Source: Nitrospinota bacterium (GTDB taxonomy: Bacteria > Tectomicrobia > Entotheonellia > J063). From it: a DNA stretch of 6,022 bases. The stretch spans positions 1 through 6,022 of the forward strand of contig RFHZ01000630.1 in the NCBI GenBank assembly GCA_003696125.1, written 5' to 3'. This document shows, piece by piece, positions 961-6,022 of this stretch (positions are counted from its first letter, which is position 1; each line of letters starts with the position of its first letter). A program made the position numbers and the translations under genes. Below the pieces are notes generated by a model. It ran no database searches. It saw only the letters and a list, made by a program, of their open reading frames with translations, and was not told the origin of the DNA.

Positions 961-3900
961 TCAGAGTTGTGCTTGTAGTTGGGTACAGGCCCTGCAAAGC
1001 TCCCCATCTCCACACTCCGTGGCCATGGCCAGAGCCTGTCTGGTATATTCCCGGGCAGAAAGGGGTGAACCCTGGGCCGCGTATACCCGGGCCAGGTGGT
1101 GCAACATCCACCCCTCTCCCCGGGAATCGTCAATGCTGCGCCGGATCTCCAGGGAAGCCTGGTAGTGCTGGATCGCCTCGTCGTAGCGTCCCAGATCGTA
1201 ATAGACATCGCCGATGGCCGCCAGCCCATGCCCTTCCAGGAGCCGTTGTCCGGTCTGTTGATGGGTAGTTACCGCTTCCTGCAGACAAACCAGTGCTTCG
1301 TCATGGCGCCTGAGACCCCGCAGCGTCACCCCGAGGCTGTTCAGGATCAGGCCGAGATGAACCAGGTCTCCCAGGTCCTCATAGATCTGCCGGGCCTGTT
1401 CGTAGTGCATCAGCGCCTCGGTATAAGCCGCCTGGTGCCATTCCAGGATGCCGAGCTGATTCAGCAACTCTCCCTGCTGAACCTGGTCTCCCAGCCTTCT
1501 GGCCAGATCCAGCGCTTCGTGCAGGTAGCGTATGGCCTGCTCCGGTGCGTTGAGAGGGTGCCGGGAGAGCCGGATCATCTGTTGCAGTGCCTCCAACTCT
1601 CCTGGAGGATTGGCGAGTTGCCTGCGCAGGGCGCAGACCTTCTCCCAGGCGCTAAACGCCTCCAGGGAGTTCTGGAGGTGCTCCTCATAGATGGTGGCGA
1701 CCTTGCTCCAGATCAGAGCCTCATTCTCCTGCTCTTTCAGCTCTGTCGCCACCGTGGTGGCCTCTAAGAGACAGGGAAGGGCGTCTTGAGGCCGATTAAG
1801 CACCAGCAGGAGCTCTCCCACCATGCGCAGCGCATGGAGCAGACCCTGCCCATACCGGATGTCGCGGGTCATCTGCACCACGTCTTGATAGAGGCGCAGG
1901 CTTTCCTGCACCTTTCCCTGTTCCCAGGAGATATGGGCAATAGAGGTCAGGGTGAACGCCTGGCCGATGAGGTTGCGGCAGTGGACATGAATATCGTACG
2001 CCTGCCGGTAGTAAGTCAGGGCCTGCTCCAGATCACCCCGGTCCCGGTGGACATTGGCGATGTTGTACAGGGTGGGGGCCAGCTTGACCAGGTTGTGCAG
2101 CGAGGTGTAGAGCTGGCGAGCCTCTTCCAGACAGGCCAGTGCCCGCGCGTAGTGTCCGAGCTTGCGCAAGACCACACCGAGATTGGTCAGATCGGTGGCA
2201 ATGGCGGTCAGATCTCCTCGCTCTCGATCGATGGCCAGAACAGCTTCGTTGCAGGAGAGCGCATCGTCGTACCGGCCCTGATGCCAGCGGAGGAAGCCTA
2301 TGCTGCGGAAGACATGAGCCTCTCCGGCTTGGTCAGACAGGGCTCGCCGCAGGGCAAGCGCCTGGCTGAGAACCTGCTCTGCTTCTGCGAAACGTCCCAA
2401 CAGGGTGTGCAGTTCTCCCTGCCGGACGTACACCTCGGCCAGGCAGGACGGATTATCACCCGGGGATAGCAGGGCAAGGAGTTGATCGATGATCGCCTGC
2501 TGCTGATCCCGCCATCCCAGGGTTTCATAGAGCCGCTCCTGCCGGAGCAGGAGATCGAGCAGCGTCTCCTGGCGGGATCGATCCTCTGGAAGTTGCTCTA
2601 GGCAGGTTTGGGTTTGTGCAAGCATCCTGACCGCTTCCGGGAATTGACTCAGCCGCTCCGCGCTCTCGGCTGCCTGGCGCCCATAGATCACCGCCTTTTC
2701 CCAGTCCTCTGCCAGGCGAAAGTGGTAATGCAACAGGTAAACCTGCTCCTCCAGCCGGTCCTGATCCAGTTCTTCCATCACCTTCCCTACCTGTCCATGC
2801 AGGACCTTGCGTCGCTGCCGCAGCAGGGTTTCATAGGCCACTTCCTGCGTCAGCACATGCTTGAAGGTATACTCGGCTTCGGGTAACACGCGGATCTGCT
2901 GAATCATCTCCGTCTTCTGCAGCATTTCCAGGGCTTCCGCCAGGGCCACCTGGTCCGGATAGAGCCGCTCAAGGATACGCCGGCCAAACACCCGCCCGAT
3001 AACCGAGCCCAGGCGCAGGACCTCCTGCGCGGCAGGGGGCAGGCGATCCAGGCGGGTGCGGATGATGGCCTGTACCGTATCGGGCAGAGCAAGGTGTTCC
3101 AGGGTTTGGGTGAGGGTTGCTTCCCCATCCACAACGACCAGTATCCCCTCTTCGAGCAAAGCATAGCAGATCTCTTCGATGAAGAGCGGGTTACCGGCGG
3201 TCTGTTCATGGATCAAGGCGGTAAAACCTTCTGGTAGATGTGAGGCGTCGATAAGGGACTTGATGATGCGTTCGGTGTGGTGGATAGAGAGCGGCTTCAG
3301 GATAAGAGGGGTATGAGAGGTTCGATGCCCCCAGTTCGCCGGTAACTCGGGCCGGTACGTGACCACGACCAGCAGAGGGGCAGAGGAGGCCATACCGATC
3401 AGGTGCTGCAAGGCAGCCTGGGAGGCCTCGTCGCTCCAGTGCCAGTCTTCCAGCAATAAGACCAGGGGACGATGGCGTGCGCTCAGGGTGAGTATGGCAC
3501 TCAAAGCTTCCTGGATGGCCTGGCGCAGCTCTTCTCCTTGCATGTGGGCAGGTAAGGGATACTCGCTGCGAATGGATAAAAGGTGCAGATAGAGGGGAAG
3601 AAACGGCTCTAAGGAGGGGTCAATCGCCACAATCCGGGTGGCAACCGTTTCCGGTAGCGCCCCTTCGTCTGGCAGGTGTAATCCCTGGCGGAGGGCATCC
3701 AGAAAGGGAAAATAGGGGGTATCGCTCCTGGATGATTGGCATCTCCCCTGCCACACCGTAACCCGTTCCTGATCCAGAGAATGTCGAAATTCATACAGCA
3801 ATCGACTCTTCCCGATGCCTGCCTCTCCGACGACGCTGACAAACTCGCCTTCCCCCTGCATCGCCTTTCCCAGGGAATAATGGAGAGAGGCCAGTTCCTG

Positions 3901-4716
3901 GTCTCGACCGGTACAGGGGGCAAACCCCCGCTGTTCTGCTGCTTCAAAACGGGAGAGAATCGGTGCCGCTTCCACCACCCGGTAGGGGATAAGGGGTTGA
4001 GCCTTCCCCTTCACCCTGACCGCAGCCAGCGCCTCTGTGGTGAAGTAGGGAGTAATCAATCGCTGCATGGCCGGGCTGATCAGGATTTCGTCTGCCTGGG
4101 CCAGTGCTTTCAGCCGGGCCCCGGTATTGACCGTATCCCCGGTAATCCCGTATCGTCCGTCCCGCTCATCACGTAGAGTGGTGACGATCAGGCCGGTATG
4201 AATACCGGTATGCATGCGAAGCGGTTGACCGATGCGGGCCTCCACTGCAGGACCGATCTGGCGAACCAGTGCATGCAGGGCCAGAGCAGCGTTGACCGCC
4301 CGTAGCGGATCATCTTCATGCGCATGAGGGATACCGAAGAGGGCCAGGATCTCATCCCCGACAAACTGGTTGACGATCCCTCCGTAACGCTCAACGATCT
4401 GTACCGCCTGCTCCTTTATCCGTCGCATGATCGCTTCCACCTCTTCCGGGTCCAGGGTTTCGTTGAGGGCCGTGTACCCGGAGAGATCGGAGAAGAGGAC
4501 CGTTGCCTGCCGGCGTTCACCCCCAGGTCCGACCTCCTGGAGCGTGTCCCTCGCTTCTGGAGGGGAAGAGAGGAGACGGCCACACTGGTTACAGAACCGG
4601 CTCCCGGCCGGATTTTCGTGGTGACATTGCGGGCAGAGAAGGGAGAGCGGAGTCCCACATTGGTTACAAAACCGGGCTTGGTCGGAGTTGCTGTGCCGAC
4701 ACTGTGGACACTCCAT
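961..4716 (-). CDS. Zinc-ribbon / class III nucleotide cyclase / STAND ATPase / TPR signalling protein
   Basis: A 1251-residue cytoplasmic multidomain regulator with no membrane segment. Residues 1-50 form a double zinc ribbon (Cys3/6/17/20 and Cys28/31/42/45). Residues about 67-247 form a class III adenylate/guanylate cyclase domain: metal-binding Asp77 (VLFSDLSGYT) and Asp121 (VGDEILALFG), 44 residues apart as in the family, and transition-state Asn197 and Arg201 (GDTVNTGAR). Substrate-selecting positions are unusual: Gln117 where Lys is canonical and Gly190 where Asp or Thr is canonical, so activity and ATP/GTP preference are uncertain. Residues about 265-640 form a STAND/AAA_16-type NTPase: Walker A GEAGIGKS (297-304, Lys303), Walker B LVLLLED (418-424), and the conserved FKHVLTQEVAY (618-628). 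From about 690 to the end lies a TPR array with a 40-residue period. The start at 4716 begins directly at the first zinc ribbon and has GGGAGAAG upstream (4721-4728). Family architecture is certain. The cyclic nucleotide product, ligand and partners are unknown. Confidence 0.93.
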   Translation of the reverse strand: MECPQCRHSNSDQARFCNQCGTPLSLLCPQCHHENPAGSRFCNQCGRLLSSPPEARDTLQEVGPGGERRQATVLFSDLSGYTALNETLDPEEVEAIMRRIKEQAVQIVERYGGIVNQFVGDEILALFGIPHAHEDDPLRAVNAALALHALVRQIGPAVEARIGQPLRMHTGIHTGLIVTTLRDERDGRYGITGDTVNTGARLKALAQADEILISPAMQRLITPYFTTEALAAVRVKGKAQPLIPYRVVEAAPILSRFEAAEQRGFAPCTGRDQELASLHYSLGKAMQGEGEFVSVVGEAGIGKSRLLYEFRHSLDQERVTVWQGRCQSSRSDTPYFPFLDALRQGLHLPDEGALPETVATRIVAIDPSLEPFLPLYLHLLSIRSEYPLPAHMQGEELRQAIQEALSAILTLSARHRPLVLLLEDWHWSDEASQAALQHLIGMASSAPLLVVVTYRPELPANWGHRTSHTPLILKPLSIHHTERIIKSLIDASHLPEGFTALIHEQTAGNPLFIEEICYALLEEGILVVVDGEATLTQTLEHLALPDTVQAIIRTRLDRLPPAAQEVLRLGSVIGRVFGRRILERLYPDQVALAEALEMLQKTEMIQQIRVLPEAEYTFKHVLTQEVAYETLLRQRRKVLHGQVGKVMEELDQDRLEEQVYLLHYHFRLAEDWEKAVIYGRQAAESAERLSQFPEAVRMLAQTQTCLEQLPEDRSRQETLLDLLLRQERLYETLGWRDQQQAIIDQLLALLSPGDNPSCLAEVYVRQGELHTLLGRFAEAEQVLSQALALRRALSDQAGEAHVFRSIGFLRWHQGRYDDALSCNEAVLAIDRERGDLTAIATDLTNLGVVLRKLGHYARALACLEEARQLYTSLHNLVKLAPTLYNIANVHRDRGDLEQALTYYRQAYDIHVHCRNLIGQAFTLTSIAHISWEQGKVQESLRLYQDVVQMTRDIRYGQGLLHALRMVGELLLVLNRPQDALPCLLEATTVATELKEQENEALIWSKVATIYEEHLQNSLEAFSAWEKVCALRRQLANPPGELEALQQMIRLSRHPLNAPEQAIRYLHEALDLARRLGDQVQQGELLNQLGILEWHQAAYTEALMHYEQARQIYEDLGDLVHLGLILNSLGVTLRGLRRHDEALVCLQEAVTTHQQTGQRLLEGHGLAAIGDVYYDLGRYDEAIQHYQASLEIRRSIDDSRGEGWMLHHLARVYAAQGSPLSAREYTRQALAMATECGDGELCRACTQLQAQL
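985..2520 (-). repeat. TPR array within the signalling protein (about 12-14 units, 40-residue period)
   Basis: Within the protein, the turn position (usually Gly, as in GRYDDAL or GRYDEAI) falls at residues 734, 774, 814, 854, 894, 934, 974 and 1014. After a two-residue insertion it continues at 1056, 1096, 1136, 1176 and 1216. A further, less regular unit may lie near 690. This is the signature of extended TPRs (TPR_12-like), which form a superhelical peptide- or protein-binding surface. The units are diverged in DNA and are not recent tandem copies. The weakest units are those around 974 (Asn), 1014 (Leu) and 1056. Confidence 0.85.
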
Positions 4717-4820
4717 GGCGCTTCTCCCATGCTCTGTTTTTACCCATACCGTTTAAGGTGTTCCTGCAAGGAGGAGATTCGGCGGTACTCACAAAAGACA
4801 CACCGCTATGTCTGCAAGAG

Positions 4821-4840
4821 GGCAGAGACCTTGCTCTGCC
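4821..4840. repeat. Perfect 7-bp inverted repeat (hairpin)
   Basis: GGCAGAG, loop ACCTTG, CTCTGCC: seven perfect pairs with a six-base loop, extendable by one G-U pair in RNA. The sequence just after it, CTCGGTGCTCTCTGTGG, resembles the CTCTGTG-rich intergenic repeats seen in many bacterial genomes, so this may be an outlying part of the same repeat family as the element at 4939-5030. No T-run follows on either strand, so it is unlikely to be an intrinsic terminator. Confidence 0.5.
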
Positions 4841-4861
4841 TCGGTGCTCTCTGTGGGGCAA

Positions 4862-4889
4862 ACTTCAGGTGGCGCTGAGTTCCTGAAGT
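4862..4889. repeat. Perfect 8-bp inverted repeat with 12-base spacer
   Basis: ACTTCAGG, twelve bases, CCTGAAGT. The arms are exact reverse complements. Centre-to-centre spacing is about 20 bp (two helical turns), which would suit a dimeric repressor or activator. It lies about 150 bp upstream of the signalling gene and about 350 bp upstream of the exported-protein gene. It could equally be an RNA hairpin or part of the repeat-rich segment. Confidence 0.45.
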
Positions 4890-4938
4890 ACAAAAGTCCT
4901 CCGGTACTCGTCATAGTCAGCTCGACAATGTTGAATTC

Positions 4939-5030
4939 ACCGCAGAGTTCGCAGAGAACGCGGAGAGGAACAGCATTTTTTTGCAATGCATTCCAGAAAT
5001 ATCCTCTGCGACCTCAGCGTTCTCTGCGGT
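4939..5030. repeat. Inverted intergenic element made of 9-bp CGCAGAG-type units
   Basis: The left arm (4939-4965) has three CGC(A/G)GAG heptamers at 4941, 4950 and 4959. The right arm (5004-5030) has three units on the opposite strand, CTC(T/A)GCG at 5004, 5013 and 5022. The arms match as reverse complements at 21 of 27 positions; the mismatches fall mainly in the two-base linkers. The 38-base centre contains a nested GCATT/AATGC hairpin (4973-4989). The sequence resembles the widespread ACCGCAGAG-type dispersed intergenic repeats of many environmental bacteria, which are often mis-annotated as short proteins. A non-autonomous mobile or nucleoid-related role is possible but unproven. Confidence 0.7.
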
Positions 5031-5111
5031 AAAATGCAAATGAAACATCGTCAAGTTACTTAAAGCAAAAAAAGAGCCCTCTGTCAATGAAAATGCGATT
5101 CATGAGAATTT

Positions 5112-5141
5112 TTTAATTTTCCCTTAACCTCTCTCTAACCT
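5112..5141 (+). promoter_or_regulatory. Pho-box-like array of three 8-bp direct repeats
   Basis: TTTAATTT (5112-5119), CTTAACCT (5123-5130) and TCTAACCT (5134-5141) are separated by exact 3-bp spacers, giving an 11-bp period. The first two fit the cyanobacterial Pho-box consensus PyTTAAPyPy(T/A) fully, and the third has one mismatch. PhoB/OmpR-family response regulators bind direct repeats at this spacing. The array ends 9 bp before an extended -10, the geometry expected when the bound activator replaces a -35 element. The regulator is inferred; no regulator gene is in the window. Confidence 0.5.
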
Positions 5142-5147
5142 TCTCCG

Positions 5148-5156
5148 TGCTATGCT
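5148..5156 (+). promoter_or_regulatory. Extended -10 element of the exported-protein promoter
   Basis: TG-C-TATGCT: a TGn extension and a -10 hexamer matching TATAAT at four of six positions. No good -35 lies 16-18 bp upstream; instead the Pho-box-like repeats occupy that place, as at activator-dependent promoters. Transcription would start near 5163, leaving a leader of about 75 nt. Confidence 0.45.
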
Positions 5157-5223
5157 GGGTAGGCGATGCATAGTCTCTGGATGGAGCGCAGGCGCATCAT
5201 CCTGATCGGTCATACGGTTGGAG

Positions 5224-5230
5224 AAGGAGG
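5224..5230 (+). promoter_or_regulatory. Ribosome-binding site deciding the exported-protein start
   Basis: AAGGAGG, 8 nt before ATG 5239. An in-frame TTG at 5218 lies upstream of this site and would make the Shine-Dalgarno part of the coding sequence, so ATG 5239 is preferred. Confidence 0.85.
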
Positions 5231-5238
5231 AAAGTGCA

Positions 5239-5946
5239 ATGAGGACGCGGATCTTAGTTTCTATAACCTTTTTCCTGGTTATCTCTTTGGTGACTGCTGG
5301 TGTGGTGAATGCACAGAGTCGTAACTCCTTTGTCTGCGACGAGACCACCCTTACCCTCCCTGAGAATGCCTTGGTGACAAGCGTGGAGACGGATGGTTTC
5401 TCCGGCTCTCTCACCTACACCACGGCGGATGGGGTCGAGGAATTCCTCGATCTCCCCATCGATTATTCGTACCGTTACATCTTCCCCATGGCCATTTTGC
5501 TGGATGGAAAAGAGACCAAGATCCTGGAAGCCGGTCCATTCATCTGGGTGTACGGTGAGACGACCGCCCTGGAGGATTTGGAAGGGAAGGTCTTAAGCAA
5601 GTTTGAGGCGTTGAAGCTCGAGTGCGACTATTTTGCCGGGGCCTTCTTCTACTATGAAAACTGGGGTACACAATGGATCATCAAGGCCAAGGTGTCTACC
5701 AATACCGGTGGAGGAGGGAATCCAGGAAAGCCGGTCGAATTTGAGGGATTCCTTACCGCAATCGATTCGGCAGAGGTGGTCATAGAGAAAGAAGGAACGC
5801 AGCGGACACTCACGGTCACCAGTCAAACCCAGATCACGCTGAACGGTCAGAGTGCCACCCTCGATGACCTGCTCCTGGGAGATAAAGCAAAGGCCAAGTA
5901 CGATCCTGCGACTTATGAAGCCCTGCAACTCATCGTTGAGCGCTGA
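5239..5946 (+). CDS. Exported protein with C-terminal DUF5666-like domain
   Basis: A 235-residue protein. A Sec signal peptide is clear: MRTR, a hydrophobic core at about 5-20, and a VNA/QS cleavage site after residue 25. There is no lipobox cysteine at the cleavage site, so it should be released to the periplasm or outside. Residues about 30-152 form a domain I do not recognise, with beta-rich and aromatic stretches and two cysteines (33 and 129) that could pair. A glycine-rich linker follows (155-165). Residues about 166-235 resemble DUF5666: FEGFLTAIDSAEVVIE, then TVTSQTQI, LDDLLLGDKAKAKY and EALQLIVER, a small beta-barrel-like fold of unknown function common in exported proteins. The start is set by AAGGAGG at 5224-5230. 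The promoter region carries Pho-box-like repeats, so regulation by a PhoB-type response regulator is possible. The gene is transcribed away from the cyclase group and appears to be its own unit. Export is well supported; function is unknown. Confidence 0.85.
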   Translation: MRTRILVSITFFLVISLVTAGVVNAQSRNSFVCDETTLTLPENALVTSVETDGFSGSLTYTTADGVEEFLDLPIDYSYRYIFPMAILLDGKETKILEAGPFIWVYGETTALEDLEGKVLSKFEALKLECDYFAGAFFYYENWGTQWIIKAKVSTNTGGGGNPGKPVEFEGFLTAIDSAEVVIEKEGTQRTLTVTSQTQITLNGQSATLDDLLLGDKAKAKYDPATYEALQLIVER

Positions 5947-5984
5947 GTCGCGATGACGAGCGATTAAGAGTTTTTGCACAACTA

Positions 5985-6008
5985 CTCTCTTGCAGGAAGA
6001 TTAGAGAG
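5985..6008. repeat. 6-bp inverted repeat downstream of the exported-protein gene
   Basis: CTCTCT, twelve bases, AGAGAG, 38 bp after the stop codon. The stem is short and no T-run follows within the window, so it is at best part of a terminator or a chance hairpin. Nothing else is seen in the last 76 bases. Confidence 0.2.
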
Positions 6009-6022
6009 CAGGTAAGCTAATA

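Follow-up and report, generated by a model that had tools for sequence, protein, structure and literature searches.

Which regulator reads a row of TTAA boxes in front of an exported-protein gene, and does such a row place the gene under phosphate control? The window, that is, the whole stretch of 6,022 nucleotides analysed here, comes from a Nitrospinota bacterium. It carries a gene for a 235-aa exported protein at 5239-5946 on the forward strand (signal-peptide-like N-terminus by eye). A sequence-only reading had placed a Pho-box-like activator site and an extended -10 in front of this gene, and had assigned the gene to a phosphate or related two-component regulon.

Three boxes, their exact 11-bp register and the lack of a -35 are all confirmed when the sequence is read. 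Box 1 (TTTAATTT, 5112-5119) and box 2 (CTTAACCT, 5123-5130) fit PyTTAAPyPy(T/A), and box 3 (TCTAACCT, 5134-5141) has one mismatch to it; all three lie on the forward strand, as do the other features of the promoter. Boxes 2 and 3 occupy the position where a -35 would be. No sigma-70 -35/-10 pair occurs in 4700-6022. The extended -10, TGC TATGCT, spans 5148-5156 (TGC at 5148-5150, hexamer at 5151-5156). The 9-bp gap that had been given between array and -10 holds from the end of box 3 to the hexamer TATGCT. Counted to the TGC that precedes the hexamer it is too long: from the end of box 3 to TGCTATGCT there are 6 bp. Transcription is expected to start near 5163. A ribosome-binding site, GGAGG (5226-5230), can be read 8 bp ahead of the ATG, and a weak terminator-like hairpin with a T-run follows at 5946-5970 on the forward strand (two found, 1.4 expected by chance). 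An activator site with an extended -10 ahead of an exported-protein gene is a supported description of the locus.

Elsewhere in the window, three more features were noted. An interspersed repeat of the CCGCAGAG type (4908-5060) ends about 50 bp ahead of the promoter; it contains a 30-nt imperfect inverted repeat (4936-4965/5004-5033) and has more than 20 partial copies with 72-94% identity across the host contigs. The reverse strand encodes a 1251-aa regulator with zinc ribbons, a guanylate/adenylate cyclase domain, an AAA ATPase and TPR repeats (961-4716), and a small SCO4226-like (nickel-responsive) protein (678-941, Pfam E 7e-27).

A pyrimidine/TTAA run can arise by chance and have no function, and the T-rich region, 50 bp from an interspersed repeat, would favour such an origin. 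However, a first-order Markov model (182 kb of host contigs, both strands) predicts 0.0003 three-box arrays with at most one mismatch for the whole 4.18-Mb genome, and 4.5e-7 for the window. With the T-rich local composition of the window, 1.4e-6 three-box arrays are expected per 105 bp. When up to three mismatches are allowed, the three-box scan of the host genome finds two places only: the window (one mismatch) and C324:2282-2311 on another contig (no mismatch).

Two boxes can also be combined with the -10, which gives the pattern TTTAATYY-N3-YTTAAYCT-N20-YATNCT. Without mismatches it occurs three times in the host (C324:2282, C324:3139 and window 5112), where 8e-6 matches are expected. A fourth match appears at three mismatches (C509:5215-5259), none appear at one or two, and the reversed control has no match in the host genome. 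The pattern was derived from the sites themselves, so only independent matches carry weight. Hence its weight lies in the match on C509, a match in the classmate G003, the reversed control and the gene context. The other genomes scanned contain no match without mismatches; at up to two mismatches, 60 genomes yield scattered matches with one or two mismatches, mostly AT-rich, and the reversed control is of similar order. When the window site is left out of the matrix, it still scores 47.7 bits, and the best score of any other place in the scanned contigs is 17.2. Genome-wide pattern scans of the host find no array outside the sites described here. Four host sites and one classmate site, all at promoters and at one set distance from the -10, speak against a chance run as well. 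We give it next to no probability: for practical purposes this explanation is already refuted.

The full element, array and -10, is present at four places in the host: in the window, twice on C324 and, in weaker form, on C509. On C324 (L047), genes for a response regulator of the OmpR type (179-853) and for a sensor kinase (850-2286) form a pair, and both sites of this contig lie directly downstream of it. The array at 2282 starts within the final codons of the kinase gene, ahead of a gene for a 173-aa exported protein (2454-2975). The array at 3139, in which box 3 is displaced by one base, stands ahead of a gene for a PepSY-like exported protein (3280-3822; Pfam E 0.07, under the cut-off), which is followed by a DUF4382/DUF5666 gene (3860-5611; DUF5666 E 1e-19). 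The site on C509 stands ahead of a gene for a DUF2231-like membrane protein (Pfam E 7e-4, under the cut-off).

One relative has a clear orthologous site. The comparison set comprises four classmates, and the other approximately 55 genomes share only the domain with the host. Among the four classmates, G003 has a single match to the two-box and -10 pattern (C11:74293, two mismatches). It lies 6 kb downstream of a regulator-kinase pair orthologous to that of C324 (regulator 84%, kinase 63% identity), with an identical recognition helix, NVIDVYISYLRQKID. Downstream of the site lie a DUF2231-like gene and a PepSY-like gene, whose identities to their counterparts on C509 and C324 are 45% and 50%, respectively. 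In the host these two genes belong to separate site-bearing contigs and their orthologues stand behind a single site in G003. Near 80 relatives of the regulator from other phyla (48-61% identity), arrays are no more frequent than the reversed pattern. Thus, the operator looks lineage-restricted or diverged.

The five sites can be aligned. From box 1 to the hexamer there are 39 bp at each of them (four in the host, one in G003), which bears out the idea of an OmpR/PhoB-type direct-repeat site at a fixed distance from the -10. The hexamers are TATGCT, CATACT, TATCCT, TATACT and TATCTT. A degenerate fourth repeat, CATGAGAA (5101-5108, forward strand), lies in register 11 bp ahead of box 1, and the other four sites keep it as TGAGAA/TTAAGAA. 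In columns -11 to -1 the mean best-base count is 3.91 of 5 (null mean 2.51, 99.9% quantile 3.09), and in columns -30 to -12 it drops to 2.32. The conserved element thus covers 5101-5156 and is longer than the array first described. Conservation ends abruptly on either side of the element, so the sites are not duplicated stretches.

A further conserved stretch follows a CusR-like regulator-kinase pair in two other classmates (G002, L140:7871-7950; G001, L141 around 3930, reverse strand). By eye it has five 11-bp units (TCTAAGC, CTCATTC, CTTAATA, CTCATTT, TTCACCC) and then CATATT. A gene for a DegP-like protease lies downstream of it in G002. A two-component system, then an 11-bp array, then an envelope gene: this suggests a recurrent plan in the class.

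Which regulator binds the array? A putatively cognate OmpR-type regulator is encoded near sites both in the host (C324) and in G003 (C11). The C324 regulator scores 304.1 on TIGR01387, the model for heavy-metal response regulators of the CusR/CopR type, and passes the cut-off of 279.2; its kinase falls just short on TIGR01386 (290.6 against 292.55). On the PmrA equivalog model the regulator reaches 213 bits, short of the required 330. We consider it likely that an OmpR/PhoB-family response regulator, most probably that of C324, uses the array as its operator, with predicted class II activation of a small set of genes for exported and membrane proteins. Three more host sites, together with that in G003, support the claim of a two-component regulon. 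For the window gene, the link to C324 rests on the identity of the site sequences, the two-component system being on another contig.

Another OmpR-type regulator of the host could take this role, alone or in cross-regulation with the first. C585 encodes a second complete regulator-kinase pair, QseB-like, which could in principle share the sites, and cross-talk can occur between related regulators, QseB and PmrA among them (PMC10729948). The C585 locus, however, has no good array, its regulator has a different recognition helix (NVIEVMIYNIRKKF), and the site in G003 adjoins a two-component system of the C324 type. We regard control by a different OmpR-type regulator, or by both, as very unlikely and keep the C324 regulator as the candidate.

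Is the array a Pho box? A Pho box is defined by boxes of 8 bp in tandem, separated by 3-bp linkers and placed some 10 bp ahead of a -10, and the window site has this form; its box sequence is the SphR consensus CTTAACCT in repeats of 8+3 bp (PMC1906773). As a true Pho box it would be bound by a PhoB/SphR-type regulator that the assembly lacks, and the gene would be induced under phosphate limitation. The classmates lend this some support. G001 and G002 have a gene for a PhoB-like regulator in the order porin-phoB-pstS-C-A-B-phoU (the porin is phosphate-porin-like), and ahead of this pho operon stands a TTTAAC/TTTACC array with an 11-bp period and 39 bp to TATCTT. In G003, CTTAACC/CCTAACC repeats lie upstream of pstS. 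Because the pho arrays of G001 and G002 share the geometry, geometry alone cannot separate the two regulons.

The window site is set apart from the pho arrays of the class by sequence and gene context. On the same matrix the pho sites of G001 and G002 reach 12.8-15.3 bits and the window 47.7, and the other good genomic matches sit at a two-component system of the CusR type. A search for the array upstream of the host's phosphate genes, as had been proposed, finds none in about 350 bp of intact sequence upstream of pstS (C336) and none on the pstB-phoU contig (C402); the check covered these two loci, without the region upstream of pstC/A. Absence of the array from the phosphate genes is an outcome that the sequence-only reading had itself named as refuting its proposal. 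The assembly contains three Trans_reg_C proteins, one of them in a 1271-aa open frame, with no PhoB found among them; scoring on the PhoB model TIGR02154 covered the other two, the regulators of C324 (214) and C585 (172), which both fail the cut-off of 296. The host genome is a fragmented metagenome-assembled genome (990 contigs, 94.8% complete, 8% contamination), and hence it may lack a PhoB gene, or additional sites, that the organism has. With the array missing from pstS, no PhoB in the assembly and a regulator that fails the PhoB model, the proposed phosphate regulon is not supported, and we judge a true Pho box unlikely.

The likely true Pho array of the class is at L144:2523-2580 in G001 and around L143 10840 (reverse strand) in G002, with boxes TTTAAC/TTTACC/TCTAAT at an 11-bp period, 9 bp ahead of TATCTT. 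Possible Pho boxes upstream of pstS in G003 (L145, around 12762, reverse strand) are CTTAACCGAACCTTAACC near the pstS start and, further upstream, CCTAACCGCATCCTAACGC ahead of CATACT.

How might the C324 regulator work? Once phosphorylated, it would bind head-to-tail, with one DNA-binding domain per 11-bp repeat. In that position it would lie over the missing -35 and bring RNA polymerase to the extended -10, as in class II activation. The shared operator would drive at least three other units in the host: the 173-aa exported protein, the PepSY-like protein with the DUF4382/DUF5666 protein, and the DUF2231-like membrane protein. This mode would resemble that at PhoB, SphR, PmrA and BqsR sites (PMC1906773, PMC3973317, PMC4682146).

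The individual systems agree with the array to different degrees. The SphR Pho box of cyanobacteria (CTTAACCT three times, 3-bp linkers) has the same box sequence, number, 11-bp period and place ahead of the -10 (PMC1906773). In contrast, our host is evidently not cyanobacterial, since so few close relatives are in the comparison set; its sites are found at a CusR-type two-component system and envelope genes instead of pho genes, and no PhoB/SphR was found. The PmrA/BasR box, CTTAAT-N5-CCTAAG, has the same TTAA/CTAA half-sites head to tail at an 11-bp period (PMC3973317), whereas the window has three to four repeats instead of two. The BqsR/CarR site, TTAAG-N6-TTAAG, has the same 11-bp TTAA repeats with different box ends (PMC4682146). 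As PmrA and BqsR share spacing and core, the TTAA box is not specific to SphR. Among the CusR/CopR regulators, whose model the C324 regulator passes, CusR of E. coli is known to use a dyad around TGACA, not TTAA direct repeats.

In PepSY modules such as BqsRS and DbfQRS, two-component systems adjoin genes for PepSY proteins, a link reported at more than 60-fold above chance (PMC4682146, PMC12714742). Here, by contrast, the regulator belongs to the heavy-metal subfamily and the PepSY match is below the Pfam cut-off. The module is known and widespread, and its kinase can be a target of the PepSY protein (PMC12714742); by analogy, the PepSY-like protein may act on the C324 kinase.

What does the window gene encode? 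The last 74 residues of its product match a four-repeat DUF5666 protein of genome G016 (E 7e-9; that protein hits DUF5666 at E 1e-27). On the Pfam model the product itself reaches 12.6 bits, below the gathering score of 27. By sequence it is related to DUF5666, and it is not formally a member. A pattern search in 84,980 genomes finds no relatives. For the C-terminal domain (8-row alignment) an OB fold is predicted with pLDDT 95.6; the single-sequence structure of the whole protein is poor (pLDDT 45) and was set aside. The best fold match of the domain is CusF (Z 9.4, rmsd 1.8-1.9 over 63-65 residues; Foldseek E 0.002). OB folds are common, and the match of the predicted model would indicate fold, not function. 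We rejected the protein as a CusF: the domain is devoid of His, Met, Trp and Cys, and hence CusF-type metal binding is not expected.

The window gene probably belongs, with other genes for exported and membrane proteins, to a small regulon that serves the envelope or the handling of metals rather than phosphate. Metal or envelope stress as the signal are guesses, based on the regulator subfamily and the gene content. Tentatively, and as a possibility we rate a little below even, a regulator of the CusR/CopR subfamily has, in a poorly sampled phylum, adopted SphR/PmrA-like TTAA direct repeats as its operator; the PepSY-like, OB-fold (DUF5666) and DUF2231-like proteins would be its private envelope regulon. 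Such a system would be a PepSY-sensor module, in which exported products may feed back on the kinase.

For a two-component system from a lineage that has hardly been studied, the finding would supply a concrete operator together with a first, small regulon. DUF5666, DUF2231-like and PepSY-like proteins would be tied to one regulator. A direct-repeat array of TTAA boxes should not be called a Pho box without checking the genes that bear it.
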